From: Syntrophobacterales bacterium
Lineage (GTDB): Bacteria > Desulfobacterota > Desulfobaccia > Desulfobaccales > 0-14-0-80-60-11
NCBI GenBank assembly: GCA_023512475.1
Contig: JAILZL010000014.1
Coordinates: 1 to 64,000, forward strand
Length of the DNA: 64,000 nt
Reading direction: 5' to 3'
The position numbers and the translations under genes are program-made. This document shows positions 3,803 through 45,906 of this stretch, piece by piece. The notes beneath the pieces were generated by a model. It was not told the DNA's origin. It searched no databases and saw only the letters and a program-made list of their open reading frames with translations. Within the stretch, counting starts at the first letter, position 1; the number at the start of each line of letters is the position of its first letter.

Positions 3803-4491
3803 CTTCGGACTCCTTGCCAGAGGACATAGACGCCGGCCGCAAAGATGAGGAGGCCGGCCACCTGCTGCATGGCCGCGCCGGCCTGGGCGCCCCGGGACTG
3901 GAGAAAGGCGTTGATCAACCCGGTGAAGGTTCCCGCCAGGATGATGAGGGTGCCCTGCCCCAGGGCGTAGGCGAAGAGCAGGGTGCTGCCGTAGGCCACC
4001 TGACCCTGCACCGCGGCCAGGGTGAGGATGACCGCCAGCACCGGGCTGGCGCAGGGGGACAGGACCAAACCGAAGAGCATGCCCAAAAGGAGGGCACCCA
4101 TCAGCCCGGTCCTCCGGGAGAGAAGGCGCTGGGAGCCCCCGCCCAGGTTCAGCTTCAGAATCCCGGTGAGCTGAAGGCCCATGAGCATGAGAATGACGGC
4201 GACGATGAAATACCAGTAACTACCGATATCACCCAAAAGGGTGCCCATGAGGGCCGCCATGGCGCCCAGCCCGGACATGACCAGGGCCAGCCCCACCACG
4301 AAGGTGAGGGAGTAGAGAAAGGCCTGGCTCCGGCTGTCCCGGGCATAGCCGCCCACAAAGCCGATGACCAACGGGATGCTGGCCAGGATGCAGGGGCTGG
4401 CGGTGGCGATGACGCCGCCCAGATAGGAGGCGCCGTAGGCCAGGAGAGGGCGGGTCATCAGGACCTGGCCCAGAGAGTCGCTCCATCCCAT
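3796..4491 (-). CDS. CcdA/DsbD-type transmembrane electron carrier
   Basis: A 231-residue membrane protein with about six transmembrane helices and the two conserved membrane segments of the CcdA family (GGVIATASPCILASIPL near residue 30 and GLVLSPCASPVLAVIL near residue 140). Each holds the proline-flanked cysteine of the intramembrane redox pair. CcdA proteins move reducing equivalents from cytoplasmic thioredoxin to extracytoplasmic thiol proteins. The gene lies between a thioredoxin-like lipoprotein gene and a cytoplasmic thioredoxin fusion gene, matching the two sides such a carrier would connect. A GGGGAG ribosome-binding site precedes the ATG. Confidence 0.93.
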   Translation of the reverse strand: MGWSDSLGQVLMTRPLLAYGASYLGGVIATASPCILASIPLVIGFVGGYARDSRSQAFLYSLTFVVGLALVMSGLGAMAALMGTLLGDIGSYWYFIVAVILMLMGLQLTGILKLNLGGGSQRLLSRRTGLMGALLLGMLFGLVLSPCASPVLAVILTLAAVQGQVAYGSTLLFAYALGQGTLIILAGTFTGLINAFLQSRGAQAGAAMQQVAGLLIFAAGVYVLWQGVRSW

Positions 4492-4504
4492 GTGTTTCTC
4501 CCCC

Positions 4505-4906
4505 TCAGCGGATAAAGTTCAGCTGCTTCAGTTTGGCCAGCATCTCGTCCCGGGTGAGGGGCCCGATATGCCTCTCCACCTCCCGGCCCTGCGCGTCCAC
4601 GAAAATCTGGGTGGGGATGAGGGTGATGCGGAACCGGGGAAAGAGGTGCCGCTGCTCATCGGCGTAGATCAGGCGGAAGTCCACCTGATCCCCGTGGCTG
4701 GCGGTGAGCTCGGCGAAGACCTTCTGCATCTGGATGCAGGGGGCACAGGTCTTGGCACCGAACTCCAGCACCGCCGGCCGCCCGGGGGTGGTAAGGGCCC
4801 CGGCGGCGGCAGCCGGGGGCTGTTTGTCCGGCTCCGAGCTGCAGGCCATCGCCAGGGTCGCCACTAACACCACCATGAAGGCGGTGGTCAGAATTCGTCG
4901 GTGCAT
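4505..4906 (-). CDS. Membrane-anchored periplasmic thioredoxin-like protein
   Basis: A 133-residue protein with a signal peptide ending LATLAMAC, a loose lipobox, so probably a lipoprotein anchored through Cys22. The thioredoxin domain follows, with the CAPC active site in FGAKTCAPCIQM and the cis-proline region LIPTQIFVDAQG. I chose the ATG at 4906 because the longer frame has no signal peptide and would overlap the uspA gene. It lies 13 bases upstream of the ccdA-like gene, so it is the likely recipient of electrons that the CcdA protein passes across the membrane. Confidence 0.92.
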   Translation of the reverse strand: MHRRILTTAFMVVLVATLAMACSSEPDKQPPAAAAGALTTPGRPAVLEFGAKTCAPCIQMQKVFAELTASHGDQVDFRLIYADEQRHLFPRFRITLIPTQIFVDAQGREVERHIGPLTRDEMLAKLKQLNFIR

Positions 4907-4997
4907 CAAGGCGCTTTCCTTTCCAGGCTCAGGTGGATTCAGGGCCAGGCGATGCCGGAGCCCCGGATTTTTTTCTGCCCGTTGCGCCGCCCGGACC

Positions 4998-5873
4998 TCA
5001 CCGCCGGGCCGGCGGGATGAGGAGCACCGGGCAGGGGGCCAGCCGGGCCACATTATGGGCCACGCTCCCCAGAAAAAGCTCTTTCAGGAAGCCCTTGCCC
5101 TGGGTGCCCATGAGGATAAGGGAGATGTCCTCCGTCTCCAGGACCCTGAGGATGGCGGGCAGGGGCCGGCCGGGGTCGAAGAATTGGCTCACCAGGGGGA
5201 TGCCGGCCTGCTGCAGCCGGGCGGCCCACTCCTCCAGCTGCCCCTGGGCCTGGGCCACCGCCAGTTCCTGGAAACCCGGCGGATATTCAAACCCCCCGGG
5301 CACATCCAGGGCATGGAGCAGGCTCACCCGGGCCACCCCCCGGGGGCCCAGTTTCATGAGCACCTCCAGGGCGCGCAGGGCGGTCTCGGAGAAATCCGTG
5401 GGGAACAAAAGATGCCGCAACAGCTCCGTGGCCTGCAGGCGGCAGGTGCCCTCGGGCCTCTCCGCGGTGATGCGGGCCTTGAGGAGCAGGATGGGGAGCT
5501 CAGCATGGTGCAGCACCGCGCCGGTGACCGAGCCCAACAGGCGCTCCTGCCAGCGGGAGGTCTTCTGGGGGCCCACCACCAGCAGTTGGGCGCCGTAGTG
5601 CCGGGCCACGTCATACAGGACATACCCCGGCAGCCCTGTGACCACCGCGGTGTGGACCTGAAACCCCTGGGCCGTCAGTTTCTCTTTCTGGGCCGCCAGC
5701 CGGGGCTCGGCCTCGGACAGGAGCTTCGCCTCCATGCCCCCCAGAAACTTTACGGTGATCACATGGGCCAGGATGAGTTCCCGGGCTCCCAGGACCCGGA
5801 GTTCGCCGGCACAGGCAATGATTTCGTCCCAGGCCGGGGAGAGGTCAGTGGCCAGCAGGATCTTTTCAAACAT
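4998..5873 (-). CDS. Tandem universal stress protein (UspA family)
   Basis: A 291-residue protein with two UspA domains. Domain 1 (about 1-145) starts MFEKILLATDLS and ends with the nucleotide-binding signature VVGPQKTSRWQERLLGS. Domain 2 (about 160-291) starts HLLFPTDFSE and ends LMGTQGKGFLKELFLGSVAHNV. The G-x2-G-x9-G(S/T) ATP-binding pattern is most intact in the second half. UspA proteins are cytosolic and bind ATP or signal stress. It lies between acr3 and the thioredoxin lipoprotein gene on the same strand, so it is probably induced by arsenic with them. Confidence 0.95.
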   Translation of the reverse strand: MFEKILLATDLSPAWDEIIACAGELRVLGARELILAHVITVKFLGGMEAKLLSEAEPRLAAQKEKLTAQGFQVHTAVVTGLPGYVLYDVARHYGAQLLVVGPQKTSRWQERLLGSVTGAVLHHAELPILLLKARITAERPEGTCRLQATELLRHLLFPTDFSETALRALEVLMKLGPRGVARVSLLHALDVPGGFEYPPGFQELAVAQAQGQLEEWAARLQQAGIPLVSQFFDPGRPLPAILRVLETEDISLILMGTQGKGFLKELFLGSVAHNVARLAPCPVLLIPPARR

Positions 5874-5901
5874 GGCGGCTGTCCTTATAAGGGAGTGAAC
5901 C

Positions 5902-7071
5902 TCAGCGCCCGGGATGGCCGCCGGTCAGGGTGCCCTGGAGGCAGCCCGGACAGAGGTAGCCTTCCCGGCTGCCCTGCCGGAAGTGGAAGAGCATCTCCAA
6001 CCCGGCCTCCCGGCCGCAGGCGGCGCAGGTGAAATACTTGCGTTTGAAATGCAGGGCCACATGCACCAGGGACAGGAGGATGGGCACCTCCAGCAGGGGC
6101 CCGATGACGGTGGCAAAGGCCATGCCGGAGTGGATGCCGAAGACCGCGATGGCCACCGCGATGGCCAGCTCAAAGTCGTTGCTGGCCGCCGTGAAGGACA
6201 GGGTGGCGGACACCGGGTAGGAGGCCCCCAGCCGCATGGCCAGAAAGAAGGTGAGGAGAAACATGGCCACGAAATAGATGGACAGGGGGATGGCGATGCG
6301 CACCACGTCCAACGGCAGGCTGACAATATATTCGCCCTTGAGGGAGAACATCACCACAATGGTGAACAGCAGGGCGATGAGGGTGATGGGGCTGATTTTG
6401 GGGATGAATCTGGTCTCATACCATTCCCGGCCCTTGAGACCCCCCAGGAGGAAGTAGCTCAGCAGCCCGGCGAAGAAGGGGATGCCCAGATAAATGAGCA
6501 CCGTGACCACCACATCCAGGATGCCCACCTGCACTTCCCGGGCGAAGGCCAGGTTGAGCCACCGGGGGAAGACGGAGATGAAGAGATAGGCATACACGGC
6601 GTAGAGGGCCATCTGAAAGATGGCGTTGAAGGCCACCAGCCCGGCGCAGTATTCCCGGTGTCCCCCGGCCAGCTCGTTCCAGACGATGACCATGGCGATG
6701 CAGCGGGCCAGACCCACCAGAATGAGCCCCACCGCATATTCCGGGTAGCCGGACAAAAAGATCACGGCCAAGGCGAACATGAGAACCGGTCCGATGAGCC
6801 AGTTCAGGACCAGGGAGAGGGACAGGATGCGCACCTGGGAGAAGACCCGGGGCAGTTCATGGTAATTGACCCGGGCCAGGGGCGGATACATCATCAGGAT
6901 GAGGCCCGCGGCGATGGGCAGGTTGGTGGTGCCCACGGTGAAAAAATCGATGAACCGGGCCACCCCGGGGAGGAAATAGCCCAACAGCACCCCGAAGACC
7001 ATGGCCAGGACGATCCACAGGGTGAGGAAGCGTTCCACAAACCCGAGACGCTGGGCAACGGTGTCGGCCAT
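5902..7071 (-). CDS. acr3: ACR3-family arsenite efflux transporter with zinc-ribbon-like tail
   Basis: A 389-residue transporter with about ten membrane helices. The family region [18 protein letters not shown] (about 140-157) holds the conserved cysteine needed for arsenite transport, and the C-terminal helices carry the [11 protein letters not shown] segment. Acr3 exports arsenite using the membrane potential. Residues beyond about 340 form an unusual hydrophilic tail with Cys349-x2-Cys352 and Cys374-x2-Cys377, like a zinc ribbon or thiol metal site; ordinary Acr3 proteins end before this. An AGGAGA site precedes the ATG. The gene is second in the operon, directly after arsR. Confidence 0.95.
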
Positions 7072-9857: not shown

Positions 9858-10829
9858 TCAGGAATACAGCCAGCAGCGCACCCGGTGTCCCGGAGCCACG
9901 GTGGCCCAGGGGGGCACCTCGCCGCAGGGCTCGAACCGCCGGGGACAGCGCTCGGCAAAGAGGCAGCCCCCGGGGGGCCGGAAGAGGTCCGGCACCTGCC
10001 CGGGAATGGAAAGCAAGGGCGCCCCGGGGGGCCGGGTGAAATCCAGGCGGGGCACCGAGGCCAACAGCCCTTGGGTGTAGGGGTGGCAGGGGGACTTGAA
10101 GAGGCGGGGGGTGGGGGCCTCCTCCAGGAGCAGACCGGCGTACATCACCGCCACCCGTTCCGCCACCTGGGCCACAATGCCCAAGTTGTGGGTGATGAAG
10201 AGCACCGCCAGGCCCAGCTCCCGCCTCAGCCGCCGCAGCAGTTCCAGGATCTGGGCCTGGATGGTGACATCCAGGGCGGTGGTGGGCTCGTCAGCGATGA
10301 GGAGGGCAGGGGAGAGCGCCAGGGCCATGGCGATGAGCACCCGCTGTCTCAGCCCCCCGGAGAGCTGATGCGGATACTGCTTCAGGCGCCGGGGGGCATC
10401 GGGGAGCCCCACCCGGGTGAGGGCCCGGGCCGCTTCCTTCAGGGCGGCCGCCCGGGACAGGCCCCGGTGCACCATGAGGACCTCCGCCACCTGCTCGCCG
10501 ATGGTGAAGACCGGGTTGAGGGCGGTCATGGGCTCCTGGAAGACCATGCCGATGCGGTTCCCCCGCACCGTCCGCAGGCGCTCCGGCGGCCAGGACAGGA
10601 GATCCTCCCCCTCGAAGAGGATCTGCCCCCGCACCAGGGCGGTCTCCGGGAGCAGGCGCAGGATCGCATGGGCGGTCACCGTCTTGCCGCAGCCCGATTC
10701 CCCCACCAGTCCCAGGGTCTCCCCCGGGGAGAGATCGAAGCTCACCCCGCCCACCGCCTGGAGGCGGCCGGCCGGCAGGTCGAAATGAACCTGGACGTCC
10801 CGCAGGGACAGCAAGGGAGGGGGGCTCAC
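9858..10829 (-). CDS. Oligopeptide/dipeptide ABC transporter ATPase (OppD/DppD type), orphan
   Basis: A 323-residue ABC ATPase. It has Walker A GESGCGKT (about 43-50), signature LSGGLRQR, Walker [12 protein letters not shown] and the H-loop FITHNLG. The C-terminal OppD/DppD extension carries four cysteines (CLFAERCP ... C ... RCW), which in this family can hold an Fe-S cluster. The start is GTG, overlapping the TGA of the histidine kinase gene (GTGA). No permease or peptide-binding protein gene is adjacent, so its transporter partners must be elsewhere or its role has changed. It powers peptide or nickel uptake in typical systems. Confidence 0.93.
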
Positions 10830-20419: not shown

Positions 20420-20644
20420 TTGCGGCTCCTGGCGGCTTCCCGCGGCTTTTCTCGCCGGACAAGAACAGGTGCGCATCTGTGGGGTTCTGAGGCCTCACCA
20501 GGGGGCGCCTGCCGCCCGGTTGCGGAAGGGATAGGGTGGCGGACCGCCGCCTCTTTTGCCCCTTACCCCGCCGTAGGGCAATGGCTCCGCCGGCCCTTTC
20601 CCCGGCCTTGGTGCCGCCGCTCCCTCCTTTTTTCTTTCAAAAGA

Positions 20645-20676
20645 AGAATTTTTTTGCTATGTGAGAGAAAAATTCT
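20645..20676. promoter_or_regulatory. AT-rich inverted repeat upstream of the sensor gene
   Basis: Perfect 9-bp arms AGAATTTTT (20645-20653) and AAAAATTCT (20668-20676) are separated by 14 bases. The patch is strongly AT-rich in a GC-rich background and lies 45 bases before the sensor ATG. It could be an operator or an RNA hairpin in the leader; no clear -35/-10 pair was found. Confidence 0.45.
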
Positions 20677-20721: not shown

Positions 20722-22905
20722 ATGACGGCTGACACCGCACCTCCAGACAAAGAGGCGGGGGGTTCCTCCCCTGCTCCGGTGCCCCGGACGCTCCGCCGGG
20801 CCCTGGAGCTTCTGGCTGCCGGGATGGAGGAGGGCCCCTTCCTGCAGGAGGTCTGCCGCCTGGCGCTGGAGGCCGGCGGTGGGGCGGCGGTGATCCTGCT
20901 TCCCCGGGAAGGGAGGCTCAGGCCCGCGGCCTGGGCCGGATCCCTGCCCCCTGTTTTTCTCACCGCTTCTTTCAGCTTGACGGGTCCCCCGGAGCACCAC
21001 CCGTTCACTGAGGCCTACCAAACCGGCGTCGCAATCCGGGGCGACACCCTGGGCGAGGACGAGGCGGCGCTCCCCTGGGCGGCGGCCCTGCGGGAAGCGG
21101 AGCTGGATGCCTGCCTGGCGGTGCCGCTGCGGGTGGCCGGAAGGACCCTGGGGGTGCTGGCGATCCTGCAGCACGGCACAGATCGGCCCGGCGCCCCCTG
21201 GCAGGACTGGCTGGAGCTTGTGGCCGTCAGCGCCGCGGCCGGAATCGCAGCCCGCGGTCAGGGGGAGGAAGGCCCCCGGCTGCCCGGAGAGGGGGCGTCG
21301 GCCCCTGCCGGGGCTGCCCCGGAGGGCTGGCGGCAGTCGTGGGAGGACGACGCGGGGATCGGGAGGTTTGAGGCCCGCCTGCCGGGCTTCCGTCTCACCG
21401 CCGCCACTGGCGCCCTGGCCCGCATGTTGGGCTGGGAGGACCCGGAAACCCTGCTGCGGGAGTTCGTGCCGGCGGAGCGGGTGGCGGAGGCGGCGGCCTG
21501 GGAGCGCCTGCTGGCCCAAGCGGTTGGCGGCCGGGTGGCAGGCGCTGAGGTTCGCTTCGTCCGGCGGGACGGCCAGGTGGCCGCTGTGCGCCTGTGGGGC
21601 GGCTGGGAGGGGGCCCGGGAGGTCTTCGCCGGGGTGGCCGTGGACATGAGCCGCCTTCGGGAACTGGAGGAGGAGCTGGCCGGGCTGCGGAGGTCCCATC
21701 GCCTCCTGCGGGAGCAGCACCTGGGGGCGTCCCTTCTCTCCCAGGCGGAAAAGGAGAAGCTGACCCGGGAGCTGGCCCGGGAGCGGCAGGTGGCGGACGC
21801 GGCCCTGGCGGCCGGCGAGGCGGGGGTGGCGGCCTTCACCCGGGAGGGTCGGCTGACCCATTGGAGCCGAGGCTTGGAGGCTCTCACCGGCCTGACCCGG
21901 GAGGAGGTGCAGGGCAAGGAGCTGGCCTGGGTGCTGCCGGGGCTGAAGGACGCGCTGCCGTCCGGGGTGGGCGGAGGGCCCCGGCGGCTGCTCGACCCCA
22001 GCCGGCCGGTGCAACTCCATCCCGGGGCCCCCCTCGCCGGTTATGACGCCGTTCTGATCCCTTTGCGGGACCCCCGGGGGGAGGCCGACGGCGGCATCCT
22101 CGTGCTCCGGCACGCCCCGGAAGCCCCGGCTGCTCCGGAGCCTGCCCCCGGAAAGGAGAGCGGCGGCGTCCCGGGTCCCCCGCCCACCCCCGCGGCCCCG
22201 GGGGAAGATGCCCACCGCCTGCGGTTGGAGCGCCTGGAGGCCCTGGGAAGCCTGGCGGGCTCCCTGGCCCGGGACTTTGACCAGATTCTGGGGGTGATGC
22301 TGGGCTACACGGAGATGGCCCAGGCCGCCCTGCCGGAGGAGGATCCGGCCCGGCGCAAGCTGGACCAGGTGCTGAAGGCGGGCCGCCGGGGGCGGGAACT
22401 GGTGCAGCAGATCCTGGCCTTCAGCCGTCCCTGGGAACGGCGGCCCCCAGGTCCGGGGGCGCGGCCCGAGGATGCCGGGGAAGCGCCCGAAACCCTGCCT
22501 GCCCGACGCCGGGACCGGGGCCGGGTGCTCCTGGCCGCCGGGGAGGAGGGTCAACTGGATCTCTGGCGGGAGATACTCCTCAGCCTGGGCTTTGAGGTGC
22601 ACTGCGCCCGCAGCGGCCAGGAGGCCTTGGAGCTGTTCCGGTCACAGCCCCAGGCCCTGGATCTGCTGATTGCAGACCAGGACCTGGCGCCCGGCAGCGG
22701 CCTGGAGCTGGCCCAGGCGGTTCTGGCCATCCGTCCCGGCCTGCCGGTGATTTTGTGTCTGGACCCCTTGGATCTCCTGACCCTGGAGAAGGCCAAAGGG
22801 GCCGGCGTGCGGGACTTTGCCATGAAACCGTGGTCCTTGAGTGAATTGACGGCAGCCCTGGACCGGATTCTGCCCCCTCCCGGGCCGAGGGGTTTGGCCC
22901 CCTGA
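20722..22905 (+). CDS. Degenerate hybrid sensor: GAF, two PAS, HisKA-like helix, receiver; kinase-dead
   Basis: A 727-residue soluble protein. The order is GAF (about 25-180), PAS-like (about 205-310), a coiled coil (312-360), a second PAS (about 358-465), a Pro-rich linker, a HisKA-like helix pair (500-570) and a receiver (600-717). The phospho-accepting histidine is replaced: the usual AHDFNNIL reads ARDFDQIL, so Arg517 stands in its place. No HATPase domain lies between HisKA and receiver. The receiver keeps Asp652 and Lys702 but has Ala606-Gly607 where the acidic pair should be. It cannot act as a kinase. It lies 26 bases upstream of an equally degenerate NtrC-like gene and is probably its signalling partner. 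No good Shine-Dalgarno is visible. Confidence 0.85.
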   Translation: MTADTAPPDKEAGGSSPAPVPRTLRRALELLAAGMEEGPFLQEVCRLALEAGGGAAVILLPREGRLRPAAWAGSLPPVFLTASFSLTGPPEHHPFTEAYQTGVAIRGDTLGEDEAALPWAAALREAELDACLAVPLRVAGRTLGVLAILQHGTDRPGAPWQDWLELVAVSAAAGIAARGQGEEGPRLPGEGASAPAGAAPEGWRQSWEDDAGIGRFEARLPGFRLTAATGALARMLGWEDPETLLREFVPAERVAEAAAWERLLAQAVGGRVAGAEVRFVRRDGQVAAVRLWGGWEGAREVFAGVAVDMSRLRELEEELAGLRRSHRLLREQHLGASLLSQAEKEKLTRELARERQVADAALAAGEAGVAAFTREGRLTHWSRGLEALTGLTREEVQGKELAWVLPGLKDALPSGVGGGPRRLLDPSRPVQLHPGAPLAGYDAVLIPLRDPRGEADGGILVLRHAPEAPAAPEPAPGKESGGVPGPPPTPAAPGEDAHRLRLERLEALGSLAGSLARDFDQILGVMLGYTEMAQAALPEEDPARRKLDQVLKAGRRGRELVQQILAFSRPWERRPPGPGARPEDAGEAPETLPARRRDRGRVLLAAGEEGQLDLWREILLSLGFEVHCARSGQEALELFRSQPQALDLLIADQDLAPGSGLELAQAVLAIRPGLPVILCLDPLDLLTLEKAKGAGVRDFAMKPWSLSELTAALDRILPPPGPRGLAP

Positions 22906-22931: not shown

Positions 22932-24305
22932 ATGTCATACGCCCCCATACGGAAAGCTCCTCTCCCCGAGCCCGGGATTTCTCCCGGCGGCGGGCAGGCC
23001 CGGGTGCTGGTCATCGAACCGGACGACCTCTTCCGGGAGTGGTTGGCGGACCTGCTTAAGGAGATGGGGCACCGGGTGGAGACCGCCGCCAGCCTGGCCC
23101 AGGGGGGGGCCAAGGCCGCTCAGGGCCTCTGGGATCTGGTGCTGGTGGATATGCGACTGCCCGACGGCAGCGGCCTGGAACTCCTGCCCCAGGTGCAGCG
23201 CCTGCCCCAGGCCCCCCGGATCTGCCTCATCGCCCCGGGGGACACGGCTTATGAAGAGGTGCCCAAAGCCGGGGTGGCGGGCGTGCTTCGCCGCAGCGCC
23301 TCCCTTAAGGAGACCCGGGCGCTTGTGACCCGGGCCCTGGCTGTCCCGGGTGCCGGGCGCTCCCCCGTGGCGTTTCTGCCCCTGAGGCTGGAGGAGGTGG
23401 TGGGCCGGAGCGCCGCCATGCGGCCGTGCTACGAAGTCCTGGCCCGGGCCGCCGGGGAGGAAGGCCCGGTCCTGCTTGTGGGGGAGGCCGGCACCGGCCG
23501 GGGTCTCTTCGCCCGCCTCCTGCATGCCCACAGCCGCCTGGGCCGCGGCCCCCTGGTGACCGTGTCCGCCGCGGCCCTGGGGGAGAACTCTCTGGCTCCG
23601 GCTTCCCCCTGGCCGGCCCTCAGCCGCCAGGCGCAGGGGGGCACCCTCTTCATCCGGGAGGTGGAGGCCCTGAGCCCGGAGTGGCAGCGGAGTCTGGCCA
23701 GCCTCCTGTCCCGGCGCCGGGCCGTCCCGGAGGCGGGCTTCCGGGTGGTGGCCGCCAGCTCCCGGGACCTGAGCGCCCTGGTCCGGGAGGGCGCCTTTCT
23801 CAAAGACCTGTGGGAAGAGCTTTCCGGGCTGACCATCTGCCTGCCGCCTTTGAGGGAGCGGGCCGAGGACATCCCGGAGTTGGCTTTCTTCCACCTGATG
23901 CGCCTCTGTCCCCCCGGAAACTGGAAAGGCCTGGCCCCGGATGTCCTGGAGGCGCTGGTGGCCTACCCCTGGCCGGGAAATGTGGCGGAGCTGGTGGCGG
24001 TGCTGCAGCAGGCCCTGCAGGCTGCGGGCGCGGAGCCGGTATTGCGGGCCTGGCATCTACCCCCGGAGCTGCGGCCGGCGCGGACCCCTGTCCCCGAAGA
24101 GGCGCCAGCCGGGGTGCAGGACCCCGGCCCGGCGGGGGTCAGCTTTCGGGAATTCCGGCGCCGGGTGTTGGCCCAGGCCGAGAAGGCCTATATGGAAGAT
24201 CTGATGACCCGGGCCCGGCACAACGTCAAGGAGGCCTGCCGCCTCTCCGCCCTCTCTCTGCCCCGGCTTTACGCCTTGCTGAAAAAATACCACCTGCGGG
24301 CCTGA
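22932..24305 (+). CDS. Degenerate NtrC-like regulator lacking Walker and GAFTGA motifs
   Basis: A 457-residue protein with receiver (23-140), AAA+ (154-380) and Fis-type helix-turn-helix (about 405-457, ending ACRLSALSLPRLYALLKKYHL). The receiver keeps Asp73 in LVDMRLPDGSG but lacks the switch lysine (LRRSAS). In AAA+, Walker A reads GEAGTGRG with Arg190 in place of lysine. Walker B reads GGTLFIREV with Arg242 in place of aspartate. The GAFTGA loop that contacts sigma54 is missing, and the arginine-finger segment reads FLKDLWEEL without its arginines. It cannot hydrolyse ATP or remodel sigma54 polymerase in the usual way, but the DNA-binding domain looks intact. The canonical regulator at 44551-45906 serves as an internal contrast. 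Confidence 0.88.
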   Translation: MSYAPIRKAPLPEPGISPGGGQARVLVIEPDDLFREWLADLLKEMGHRVETAASLAQGGAKAAQGLWDLVLVDMRLPDGSGLELLPQVQRLPQAPRICLIAPGDTAYEEVPKAGVAGVLRRSASLKETRALVTRALAVPGAGRSPVAFLPLRLEEVVGRSAAMRPCYEVLARAAGEEGPVLLVGEAGTGRGLFARLLHAHSRLGRGPLVTVSAAALGENSLAPASPWPALSRQAQGGTLFIREVEALSPEWQRSLASLLSRRRAVPEAGFRVVAASSRDLSALVREGAFLKDLWEELSGLTICLPPLRERAEDIPELAFFHLMRLCPPGNWKGLAPDVLEALVAYPWPGNVAELVAVLQQALQAAGAEPVLRAWHLPPELRPARTPVPEEAPAGVQDPGPAGVSFREFRRRVLAQAEKAYMEDLMTRARHNVKEACRLSALSLPRLYALLKKYHLRA

Positions 24306-24370
24306 GGGCCCGGCAGCCGTTGCCACGGAAGATCATTCCCGCTACACTGGAGGCGGGAGAGGTGGAAAAG

Positions 24371-25345
24371 ATGCGCAGCAGATATCTGGCTCAGGCGGCG
24401 GCCCTGGCGGCGGCGGCCCTCATGATGGCCGCCTGCAGCAAAAAGCCGGATGCCCCGGTGCGGGCCCTGAAGCAATCGGAAATCGCCAAACTGCAGCGGA
24501 TCTACGGGCCCGGGAAGATGGAGGCCCCCTCCGAGGATCTCCAGGGGTTGCTCCCCCTGCGGCAGGAGGCGTTGGGGGACATGCTCCTGAGGAAACGGGA
24601 GTATGACAGCTCCCTGGTGACCTATCTCCAGGTTCTGGCCGAACAGCCCGAGCGCCATGACATCCGCTACAAGCTGGGGGTGGCGCTCCTCCTCACCGGC
24701 CAGTACGAGGCGGCCCGGCAGGAGTTCTCCCGGGTGCTGGCGGCCCAGCCCCAGATGCTGGAGGCCCGGGAAGGTCTGGGGCTGGCGTATCTCCAGGAGA
24801 AAAAGAACCCCGAGGCCATTCAGGAATTCCGCCAGCTGGTGGCCCAGGACCCCGCCCGGGGCAAATCCCGCTATCTGTTGGGTTTGGCCACCTTGCTCTC
24901 CGGACGCCCCCGGGAGGCCATCCCGGAGCTGGAGGCGGCCAGCCGGCTGGAACCGAAAAACCCCCTGCCGTACGCCGCGGTGGCCCAGGCCTATCTCGAC
25001 CTGAAGAATTACTCCCAGGCCCTGACCTGGGTGAAACGGGGCCTGGAGCTCGACCCGAACCACAAAAAGCTCCACCATCTCCAGGGGCTGGCCTTGGCCG
25101 GCCAGCAGCGCTATGACGAGGCCTTCGTCGCCTTTCTCAAGGCCGGGGATGAAGCCCAGGCCTACAACAACGTGGGCGTGCATTTTTATCTGGACGGCAA
25201 ATACGAAGAGGCGGCCAAGTGTTTCCAGAAGGCCCTGGAGCTCAGGCCCACCCACTACCAGGAGGCCAAGGTCAATCTGGATAGGGCCCTGGAAAAATTG
25301 CAGAGCCAGATGTTGGAGGGGGGCAAAAAAGGCAAGGCCAACTGA
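24371..25345 (+). CDS. TPR-repeat lipoprotein (TadD/NlpI-like)
   Basis: A 324-residue protein with a lipoprotein signal (LMMAACSKKP, lipid-accepting Cys22) followed by about seven tetratricopeptide repeats from about residue 55 to 310, for example YEAARQEFSRVLAAQPQML and YEEAAKCFQKALELRPTHY. TPR lipoproteins of this type assemble envelope machines such as Tad pili (TadD). The ATG at 24371 has AGAGGTGG at good spacing; the longer frame upstream overlaps the regulator gene. It follows the degenerate NtrC-like gene by 65 bases on the same strand and may be a target or partner of it. No other pilus gene is visible here. Confidence 0.9.
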   Translation: MRSRYLAQAAALAAAALMMAACSKKPDAPVRALKQSEIAKLQRIYGPGKMEAPSEDLQGLLPLRQEALGDMLLRKREYDSSLVTYLQVLAEQPERHDIRYKLGVALLLTGQYEAARQEFSRVLAAQPQMLEAREGLGLAYLQEKKNPEAIQEFRQLVAQDPARGKSRYLLGLATLLSGRPREAIPELEAASRLEPKNPLPYAAVAQAYLDLKNYSQALTWVKRGLELDPNHKKLHHLQGLALAGQQRYDEAFVAFLKAGDEAQAYNNVGVHFYLDGKYEEAAKCFQKALELRPTHYQEAKVNLDRALEKLQSQMLEGGKKGKAN

Positions 25346-25716: not shown

Positions 25717-25974
25717 ATGAAATTTCTGGAGCAGGCATGTCCGGCGGATGTCACCGCGGATCTGGTATATCGGGTCTGCCCCATGCACCTGCTGGAGCCG
25801 GCGGAGCTCCTCAAGGACCTTAAGCCCGGCCAGGTGCTGGAGATCCTCACCGACTACGACGGCGCCCTGGAGGACATCCCGGCGTGGTGCGCCAAGCACG
25901 GCCAGGAGTTCATGGGGCTGTGCGAGGATGACTGCGACCACTGCTACCGGCTCTATATCCGCAAGGTGGCCTGA
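25717..25974 (+). CDS. TusA-like sulfur-carrier protein
   Basis: An 85-residue protein of the TusA/SirA fold. The CP motif Cys21-Pro22 (VCPMHLLEPAELLKDLKPGQ) lies at the start of helix 1, but the second proline of the usual CPxP is His24. The C-terminal strand carries extra cysteines (LCEDDCDHCYRLYI), which is unusual. TusA proteins carry persulfide sulfur between desulfurases and acceptors. It is the first gene of the isc-like operon, 10 bases before the iscS-like gene, so it may be the sulfur source or acceptor for an IscS that cannot make persulfide itself. Confidence 0.88.
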   Translation: MKFLEQACPADVTADLVYRVCPMHLLEPAELLKDLKPGQVLEILTDYDGALEDIPAWCAKHGQEFMGLCEDDCDHCYRLYIRKVA

Positions 25975-43672: not shown

Positions 43673-44551
43673 TTACCCACGCCGCAGCCAATACATGGCG
43701 GCCAGGATCTTGTACACCAGACGGGCGGCGGTGAATTCGCTCACCCGCTGGCCGGGGAGGGGGGTGACCTCCACCAGGTCGGCGCCGATGAGGGGCCCCC
43801 GGGCTCCCAGGGTGCGGATGATCTCCAGCACCTGGCGGTAGCTCAGGCCCCCGGGCTCCGGCGTGCCCACCCCGGGCATCACCCCCGGATCCAGCACATC
43901 GGCGTCCAAGGTCAGGTACACCGGGCCGGAGAGCCCCTGAAGGTGCGCCAGGGCCGCCTGCCAGCCGTCGGACGTGGCCAGAGTCGCGGCCGGAAAGACC
44001 GTCATCCGGGGGGCCACCGCCATGAGCTGGTGTTCCTCCTGGGAATAGGCCCGCACCCCCACCAGGGTGAGGGGCCGCCCCAGCTCATAGACCCGGCGCA
44101 GGGCGCAGGCGTGGGAGAGCTTGCTGCCGTCATAGGTGTCCCGGAGGTCGGCGTGGGCGTCCAGGGCCACCACCGTGAGGTCCGGATACTTGGTCTGGGC
44201 CGCCTGCACCAGAGCCGGGGTGAGGGTATGTTCGCCCCCCAGGGCCACCACCGTCTTCCCCTGGGAGAACCAGGGCTGCGCCGTCTTGCGGATCTTGTCC
44301 AGCATGGCCTGGGGGCCGGCGGCCTCCGAGGTCAGGGGGGGTGCGGTGGCCAGGGCGATTTTGGCGCTGGGATCCCAGTTCCCCTCTTCGTCCCAGAGCT
44401 CCAGGTGGCGGGAGGCGGCCAGGATGGCCTCCGGGGCCTCCCGGGTGCCGGCGCCGTACGTGGTGGTGGCTTCATAGGGGATGGGGAGGATAACGGCTTC
44501 CGCCTCCTTCACCGGCAGATATCTGAGATCGAGAAACGTGAGATGGGCCAT
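43673..44551 (-). CDS. speB: Agmatinase (ureohydrolase)
   Basis: A 292-residue ureohydrolase with the binuclear manganese ligands GGEH (about 105-108), LDAHADLRD and LTLDADVLDPGVMPGVGTPEPGG. It converts agmatine to putrescine and urea. The ATG overlaps the stop of the NtrC-type regulator gene by one base (TGATG). Directly downstream is the deoxyhypusine-synthase-like gene, so putrescine may feed it. No arginine decarboxylase gene is seen here. Confidence 0.95.
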   Translation of the reverse strand: MAHLTFLDLRYLPVKEAEAVILPIPYEATTTYGAGTREAPEAILAASRHLELWDEEGNWDPSAKIALATAPPLTSEAAGPQAMLDKIRKTAQPWFSQGKTVVALGGEHTLTPALVQAAQTKYPDLTVVALDAHADLRDTYDGSKLSHACALRRVYELGRPLTLVGVRAYSQEEHQLMAVAPRMTVFPAATLATSDGWQAALAHLQGLSGPVYLTLDADVLDPGVMPGVGTPEPGGLSYRQVLEIIRTLGARGPLIGADLVEVTPLPGQRVSEFTAARLVYKILAAMYWLRRG

Positions 44552-45906
44552 CAGCTCTCCTCTTTGCTCTCCATTTCCTTGAGGCGGCGATACAGGGTGG
44601 CCAGACCGATGCCCAGGAGCCGGGCGGTGAGCTCCTTGTCGCCCCCGGTCTTTTTCAGGGTCTGGACAATGGCCAGGCGTTCGATCTCCTCCATGGAGGC
44701 GCCCACCGGCACGGTGATGACATCATCGGCGGGGGAGTGCTGCCGGATCTCATCGGGCAGGTCGGTGAGCTCCACCATGTTCCCCTGGCAGAGGGCCACG
44801 GCCCGCTCCACCACGTTCTGCAGCTCCCGGACGTTCCCCGGCCAGGAGTAGCGCTTCAGGGCCGCCATGGCCGCAGGGGAAAAGCCGTTTAAGGGGCGGT
44901 TGTTCTCCCGGCAGAACTTGTCCAGGAAGTGCAAGGCCAGCATGGGGATGTCCTCGGCCCGCTCCCTTAAGGCCGGGATGTGCAGGTGAATGACATTGAG
45001 GCGGTAGTACAGGTCCTTGCGGAACCGGCCCTGGGCCACCGCGGCTTCCAGGTCCACGTTGCTGGCGGCGATGACCCGCACGTCCACCTTGATGGTCTGG
45101 GTGCCCCCCACCCGCTCGAATTCGCCCTCCTGCAGGACCCGCAACAGCTTCACCTGGGTGGCCACCGGCATTTCGCTGATTTCATCCAGGAAGATGGTGC
45201 CGCCGTCCGCCAGTTCGAAGCGGCCTTTGCGCTGCTGGATGGCGCCGGTGAAGGCCCCCTTTTCGTGCCCGAAGAGCTCCGATTCGATGAGGCCTTCGGG
45301 CAGGGCGCCGCAGTTCACCTTGATCATGGGCTTGTCCTTGCGGGGACTCAAAAGATGGATGGCTTCGGCCACCAGCTCCTTGCCCACCCCGCTTTCGCCG
45401 GTGAGGAGCACGGTGCTTTTCAGGGGCGCCACCTGGTTGATCAGCTGCAGCACTTTGGCCAAAGCCGGGCTTTTGCCGATGAGGCGGCCGGTGGGGCCCC
45501 GTTCGGCCAGCTCCTGGCGCAGCTTGACGTTCTCCGCCAGGATCTGCTGGGTCTCCAGGGCCTTGCTCACCACCTTGCGCAGCTCATGCATGCGGAAGTC
45601 CTTGGTGATGAAGTCGTAAATGCCCCGCTTCAGGGCGGAGACCGCCTCCTCCACCGTGGCCAGCCCGGAGATCATGATGGCCATGGCCTGGGGCCGCAGC
45701 AGCCGGAGGATGGCAAAGAGCTCGGTGCCCTCCATGTCCGGCAGCTTGAGATCGATGATGGCCAGGTCCACCGGATGGCGGCGCACTTCCTCCAGGGCCT
45801 CGGAGCCCTTGCCCGCCATCAGGATTTCATGCCCCAGCTTCTTCAGCCCCGCGGCGATGGCCTCCCGGGTGGGGGCGTCGTCGTCCACGACCAGAATAAC
45901 GCTCAT
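44551..45906 (-). CDS. Sigma54-dependent response regulator, NtrC family (canonical)
   Basis: A 451-residue regulator with all motifs intact. The receiver has acidic pair VVDDD, phospho-accepting Asp in IIDLKLPDMEG and Lys in FITKDF. The AAA+ domain has Walker A GESGVGKE, the sigma54 loop GAFTGA, Walker B GGTIFLDEI and arginine fingers FRKDLYYRLN. The C-terminal helix-turn-helix reads TARLLGIGLATLYRRLKEM. It activates sigma54 promoters when phosphorylated. No kinase gene is adjacent. It contrasts with the degenerate homologue at 22932-24305. Confidence 0.97.
   Translation of the reverse strand: MSVILVVDDDAPTREAIAAGLKKLGHEILMAGKGSEALEEVRRHPVDLAIIDLKLPDMEGTELFAILRLLRPQAMAIMISGLATVEEAVSALKRGIYDFITKDFRMHELRKVVSKALETQQILAENVKLRQELAERGPTGRLIGKSPALAKVLQLINQVAPLKSTVLLTGESGVGKELVAEAIHLLSPRKDKPMIKVNCGALPEGLIESELFGHEKGAFTGAIQQRKGRFELADGGTIFLDEISEMPVATQVKLLRVLQEGEFERVGGTQTIKVDVRVIAASNVDLEAAVAQGRFRKDLYYRLNVIHLHIPALRERAEDIPMLALHFLDKFCRENNRPLNGFSPAAMAALKRYSWPGNVRELQNVVERAVALCQGNMVELTDLPDEIRQHSPADDVITVPVGASMEEIERLAIVQTLKKTGGDKELTARLLGIGLATLYRRLKEMESKEES

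Follow-up and report, generated by a model that had tools for sequence, protein, structure and literature searches.

NtrC-type regulators that lack the GAFTGA motif act at sigma70 promoters (PMC10274813, PMC3162934), and in the one from Caulobacter the Walker A and B residues and the receiver aspartate are present and required (PMC10274813). On the sensor side, DivL and a ChrS variant with a frameshifted CA domain work without kinase activity (PMC4211667, PMC9491836). Receivers without at least one of five conserved residues (DD, D, T, K) are defined as pseudo-receivers, whose switching a 2025 review called a mystery (PMC12632262). Singly, each of these is already known, be it a dead kinase, a pseudo-receiver or an NtrC protein without GAFTGA; at the locus described here, both former partners of a phosphorelay have lost their enzymology on one branch, along with a sigma54 promoter and the core of a pilus cluster.

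The pair lies in a 64,000-nucleotide stretch of a Syntrophobacterales contig (JAILZL010000014.1, positions 1 to 64,000; hereafter the window) and consists of a hybrid sensor, pHK, which ends 26 bp upstream of a regulator, pRR, whose start (ATG at 22932) and stop (ending at 24305) are as an earlier, sequence-only reading had placed them (Table 1). Relatives were sought among 40 related genomes: G000 is the window species, G001 and G002 are two other species of its genus (three genomes in all), and G003 and G005 represent two sister genera bearing canonical orthologues, another of which comes from a third genus.

Table 1. Features of the pHK-pRR locus, in window coordinates; residue numbers (res) are those of the respective protein.
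Feature	Position	Strand	Basis or remark
Candidate operator dyad TTCTT-N7-AAGAA (tentative)	20632..20648	+	Shared-dyad search
22-bp block AGAATTTTTTTGCTATGTGAGA, the same in all three species	20645..20666	+	sigma54 -12 kept, -24 GG lost
pHK, degenerate hybrid sensor, GAF-PAS-PAS-DHp-receiver	20722..22905	+	Pfam, orthologue comparison
pHK dimerisation domain DHp, res 503-572	22228..22437	+	His to Arg; tightest constraint within pHK
pHK C-terminal receiver, res 602-717	22525..22872	+	No acidic pair or Thr; Asp and Lys present
pRR, degenerate NtrC-class response regulator, 457 aa	22932..24305	+	Pfam, orthologue and structure alignments
pRR receiver, res 24-137	23001..23342	+	Asp73 kept; Thr to A101, Lys to R121; acidic pair EP
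pRR AAA+ core, res 157-307	23400..23852	+	Walker, L1, L2 and arginine-finger losses by alignment
pRR AAA lid, res 308-386	23853..24089	+	Sensor II R to A352
pRR Fis-type DNA-binding domain, res 413-457	24168..24302	+	Alignment, dN/dS
sigma70-like TadD promoter TTGCCA-17-TACACT	24320..24348	+	Both hexamers identical in three species
TadD-like TPR lipoprotein, Tad cluster remnant	24371..25345	+	Orthology with Tad-cluster gene

With a receiver, AAA+ region, lid and Fis-type DNA-binding domain in that order, pRR has NtrC-class (group 1 bEBP) architecture by Pfam, and its position in the tree, inside canonical orthologues, gives it the matching descent. Pfam recognises the receiver, Sigma54_activ_2 (80 bits) and the AAA lid; the Sigma54_activat score is 70 bits, vs 251 bits for the canonical regulator encoded in the window at 44551-45906. 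The latter is itself unusually conserved (98-99% identity and a dN/dS of about 0.02 within the genus; 83-85% identity to its counterparts from sister genera). PF02954 was not detected in pRR by the Pfam search; residues 430-455 still align to the helix-turn-helix of the orthologues, whose recognition helix is close to that of pRR.

Read position by position against the orthologues and the canonical regulator, the AAA+ region has GEAGTGRG for Walker A GETGTGKE (K to R190), TLFIREVEAL for Walker B TLFLDEVGEL (D to R242), AFLKDLWEELS for the arginine-finger segment LFRKDLLFRLR (L290, E296) and PWPGNVAEL for sensor II DWPGNVREL; GAFTGA and the surrounding L1 are deleted in all three species, and L2, the pre-sensor I hairpin, is deleted as well, a loss absent from the sequence-only reading. 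Structure alignments to NtrC1 (1ny5, E 6e-36) and ZraR (1ojl, 6e-28), made with phmmer, give the same losses, which exceed chance or sequencing error because two further species have them too; an AlphaFold model from a two-sequence input (pLDDT 45) was too poor and was left unused. The sequence-only reading had every motif for ATP hydrolysis and sigma54 contact altered. This holds for the Walker A Lys, the Walker B Asp, the arginine fingers and GAFTGA, so that pRR lacks the contact loop and catalytic residues of a sigma54 activator and, with its DNA-binding domain present, falls among the GAFTGA-less NtrC-type proteins; it does not hold for the P-loop glycines and Walker B Glu243, which are retained in all three species. 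Similarly, the receiver aspartate does persist, as had been proposed, but in a domain more damaged than that reading implied: Thr and Lys are replaced in 3/3 species, and the acidic pair DD has become ED in G001 and G002 and, by change of the second D to Pro, EP in the window species only. The domain is a pseudo-receiver by the published definition (PMC12632262).

The dead sensor partner envisaged from sequence is borne out by pHK. Pfam and comparison with the orthologous sensors of G003 and G005 (about 1240 aa) find no HATPase domain in it: where those proteins carry HATPase between DHp and receiver, a linker of 21-26 residues joins the two, and the H box of pHK reads SLARDFDQIL vs GIAHDFNNIL. 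Having neither a phosphorylatable His nor a CA domain, and being encoded by a gene under selection, pHK is a histidine pseudokinase. The pair has thus lost what is known to carry phosphate transfer and ATP-driven remodelling of sigma54, and keeps its other parts.

Like NtrC/HupR of Rhodobacter capsulatus, Caulobacter NtrC, VspR and TyrR, pRR is thus an NtrC-class protein with L1/GAFTGA deleted and the DNA-binding domain kept (VpsR likewise lacks GAFTGA), and, like the hosts of such proteins, its organism keeps RpoN. Unlike Caulobacter NtrC, it lacks the Walker A Lys, the Walker B Asp, the arginine fingers, sensor II and the receiver switch residues, and its linked sensor is also dead. pHK resembles DivL and the ChrS variant, sensors whose key residue cannot be phosphorylated or whose CA domain is not intact, but DivL retains a CA domain and senses a response regulator that is active, whereas pHK has neither His nor CA domain and is linked to a catalytically dead regulator. 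Both receivers of the pair lack conserved active-site residues, as do pseudo-receivers and atypical response regulators; what sets these two apart is that both keep the phosphorylatable Asp and that, in pRR, the receiver is joined to an AAA+ domain which is itself degenerate.

The losses of the pair have a single origin, on one branch leading to the genus. Among the 40 related genomes, close relatives of pRR (74-75% identity) are confined to G001 and G002, and the losses and gene order are common to all three. A phylogeny of the pair had been named as a check in the sequence-only reading; the tree unites the degenerate sequences in one clade confined to this genus (100/100 support), whose long stem measures 1.7 substitutions per site, next to the canonical sequences from G003 (0.1) and G005 (0.24); the fork joining this clade with G003 has moderate support only (85/81). 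A scan of genome contigs matched one species of the genus, the uncultured MAG CALEAV010000029.1; a second match, of receiver length, was unrelated. Upstream, G003 has the same order as this genus (KsgA, EamA transporter, a conserved 246-aa protein, sensor, regulator), and the pair was therefore converted in place rather than arising as a degenerate duplicate. No canonical copy of the pRR clade was found in the genus, where the next matches are general NtrC proteins of about 36% identity, which rules out a duplicate beside an intact copy elsewhere.

Whereas the pair is degenerate here, its orthologues in G003 and G005 are a fully canonical hybrid kinase and NtrC activator with a sigma54 promoter and an adjoining Tad cluster: downstream of the pair come Flp pilin genes, a prepilin peptidase, TadE and RcpC/CpaB, to which G005 adds a secretin, TadZ and other Tad genes (the arrangement lies on one contig in G005 and was assembled from two in G003). 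In this genus, all genes between the regulator and a TadD-like gene are absent from the site. The putative TadD, whose name rests on its position and TPR lipoprotein type, is 55% identical to G003:C51:6043, which adjoins a TadE-like gene, and its G005 orthologue shares a contig with the pair; its dN/dS is 0.17 for the G000-G002 comparison. A Tad cluster of the orthologue-linked type (locus B) occurs elsewhere in G001 (G001:C1) and G002 (G002:C19); compared with these across its whole genome, the window species has none, retaining only the more distant locus A (C26), the sole location of RcpC. Between TadD and the NifS gene, some 2.2 kb of additional DNA occurs in G001 alone of the three species (L031, ~3900-6600), and a small ORF of 85 aa, very highly conserved in the genus, precedes the cysteine desulfurase gene in the window (25717-25974); its CPMHLLEP motif recalls, presumably, TusA-type sulfur carriers. 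Tad-linked descent, loss of the Tad core with TadD left behind, degeneration of the receiver and the single origin had all escaped the sequence-only reading.

Scored with a hand-made consensus drawn from general knowledge (maximum 14.4), the orthologous operons carry sigma54 promoters (G003 CTGGCATTTCTTTTGCT, G005 TTGGCATTTGTCTTGCT; 14.0, 0/2000 shuffles), and the anchored site in this genus scores 6.7-9.6: within the invariant block TTTGCT is kept at -12, and AA or GA replaces the -24 GG. This loss further backs the sigma54 independence proposed for pRR from its sequence. In G001, a Flp pilin gene has a perfect sigma54 promoter (CTGGCACATGGATTGCA; G001:C1, L121, ~10470-10574, minus strand), and the Flp genes of G003 and probably G005 also carry sigma54-like promoters, so that Tad pili in the family seem to be sigma54-controlled. 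With RpoN present in all genomes and pilin promoters of this kind in the family, sigma54 control as such is intact; canonical sigma54 regulators are also kept in the window species, as had been noted.

The dyad overlapping the invariant block ranked first in a search for shared dyads (score 9.5, with mononucleotide shuffles reaching no more than 5.0, although that null ignores A/T tracts); block and dyad together suggest that pRR may regulate its own operon. A wider regulon was sought from the upstream palindrome TTCTTNTTCNANAAGAA, whose genome-wide counts were about those of a reversed control, without enrichment; a second near-match, before a Kdo-transferase-like gene (G000:C70/G002:C3), is missing in G001, and no target is therefore claimed.

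Purifying selection acts on the pair, domain by domain. From pairwise Nei-Gojobori comparisons of the three genomes (not a branch model), dN/dS is 0.35-0.38 for pRR (95% limits 0.27-0.51) and 0.38-0.47 for pHK (0.30-0.58). Both ORFs are full-length and free of stops in all three species, where neutral simulation predicts 6-19 stops and yields no stop-free run in 300 at 0.10-0.25 substitutions per site per lineage. Neutral decay, on which the sequence-only reading had staked its own refutation, is thereby ruled out, with upper limits on dN/dS below 0.6, and the marks of pseudogenes (stops, frameshifts, dN/dS near 1) are absent. For four intact NtrC-family regulators encoded in these genomes, dN/dS is 0.015-0.11, about 4 to 25 times lower, so selection holds the pair less tightly than it does a normal regulator. 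The constraint is also uneven. In pRR, the DNA-binding domain, whose retention had been proposed, has the lowest dN/dS of the protein (0.13-0.26), followed by the lid (0.19-0.27), and the AAA core the highest of its folded domains (0.41-0.56); in pHK, the DHp stands at 0.14-0.31 vs 0.31-0.67 for the sensory domains. Amino-acid changes are correspondingly rarer in the DNA-binding domain (7/55 vs 77/266, permutation p 0.007) and the DHp (6/72 vs 131/387, p 0.0002), a contrast upheld in 3/3 species pairs. Protection is therefore strongest for DNA binding and for dimerisation or docking rather than for catalysis, and the pair looks repurposed rather than dying.

These figures bear directly on slow decay, by which regulators left near useless once the linked Tad core was lost would be eroding toward pseudogenes. 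The elevated dN/dS relative to intact NtrC proteins, the absence of the likely original target from the site and the further loss of the acidic pair in the window species alone are what such erosion would produce; the stop-free ORFs that simulation never reproduced, a dN/dS well below 1, its structuring by domain and the joint retention of both proteins are not, and make slow decay unlikely.

The high dN/dS of the AAA core, together with the loss of the Walker A Lys, the sensor II Arg and the arginine fingers, likewise renders it improbable that pRR binds nucleotide as an allosteric ligand and activates sigma70 promoters, even though the P-loop glycines and Glu243 are kept in 3/3 species, constraint on the lid exceeds that on the core and Rhodobacter capsulatus NtrC offers a reported precedent for ATP binding without hydrolysis (PMC10274813). 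That pRR is a dominant-negative antagonist occupying sigma54 enhancer sites (of Flp pilin genes, for example) and blocking active NtrC paralogues is very improbable: its recognition helix is near that of canonical activators and, in a further Tad cluster kept by G001, the pilin gene has a perfect sigma54 promoter, yet the window species lacks this second cluster and keeps the pair, and, among the matches listed, alignments of other G000 NtrC proteins end at residues 365-416, before the DNA-binding domain, so that none visibly has the same site specificity.

We therefore return to conversion of a Tad-linked phosphorelay pair, in place, into a contact-controlled regulator independent of ATP and sigma54, which we regard as the probable course of events. 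The ancestor would have been a working hybrid histidine kinase and NtrC-class activator encoded in a sigma54-promoter operon beside a Tad/Flp cluster. On the branch to the genus, the Tad core went from the site, leaving TadD; the sensor was deprived of its ATP-binding domain and phospho-accepting His, the regulator of its ATP hydrolysis and sigma54 contact, and the operon of its sigma54 promoter. Still in place are the sensory and dimerisation domains, both receiver folds and the part that binds DNA. On the strength of its retained and lost motifs, pRR is most likely a DNA-binding regulator that requires neither ATP nor sigma54 and is controlled by protein contact. Its DNA-binding form could be a dimer or oligomer, either constitutive or controlled by contact, which acts without ATP turnover as a repressor or sigma70-type regulator, probably at its own operon, and pHK may alter its state by DHp docking instead of phosphate transfer. 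The strongest form of this proposal, in which signalling is free of catalysis at every step (autokinase, phospho-His, a normally switchable receiver, ATPase and sigma54 contact all being gone) and the sensor controls its partner's DNA binding by contact in a role acquired after the pilus target was lost, is possible but rather doubtful.

With canonical orthologues at hand in sister genera, the locus offers a natural before-and-after experiment for contact-only two-component signalling.
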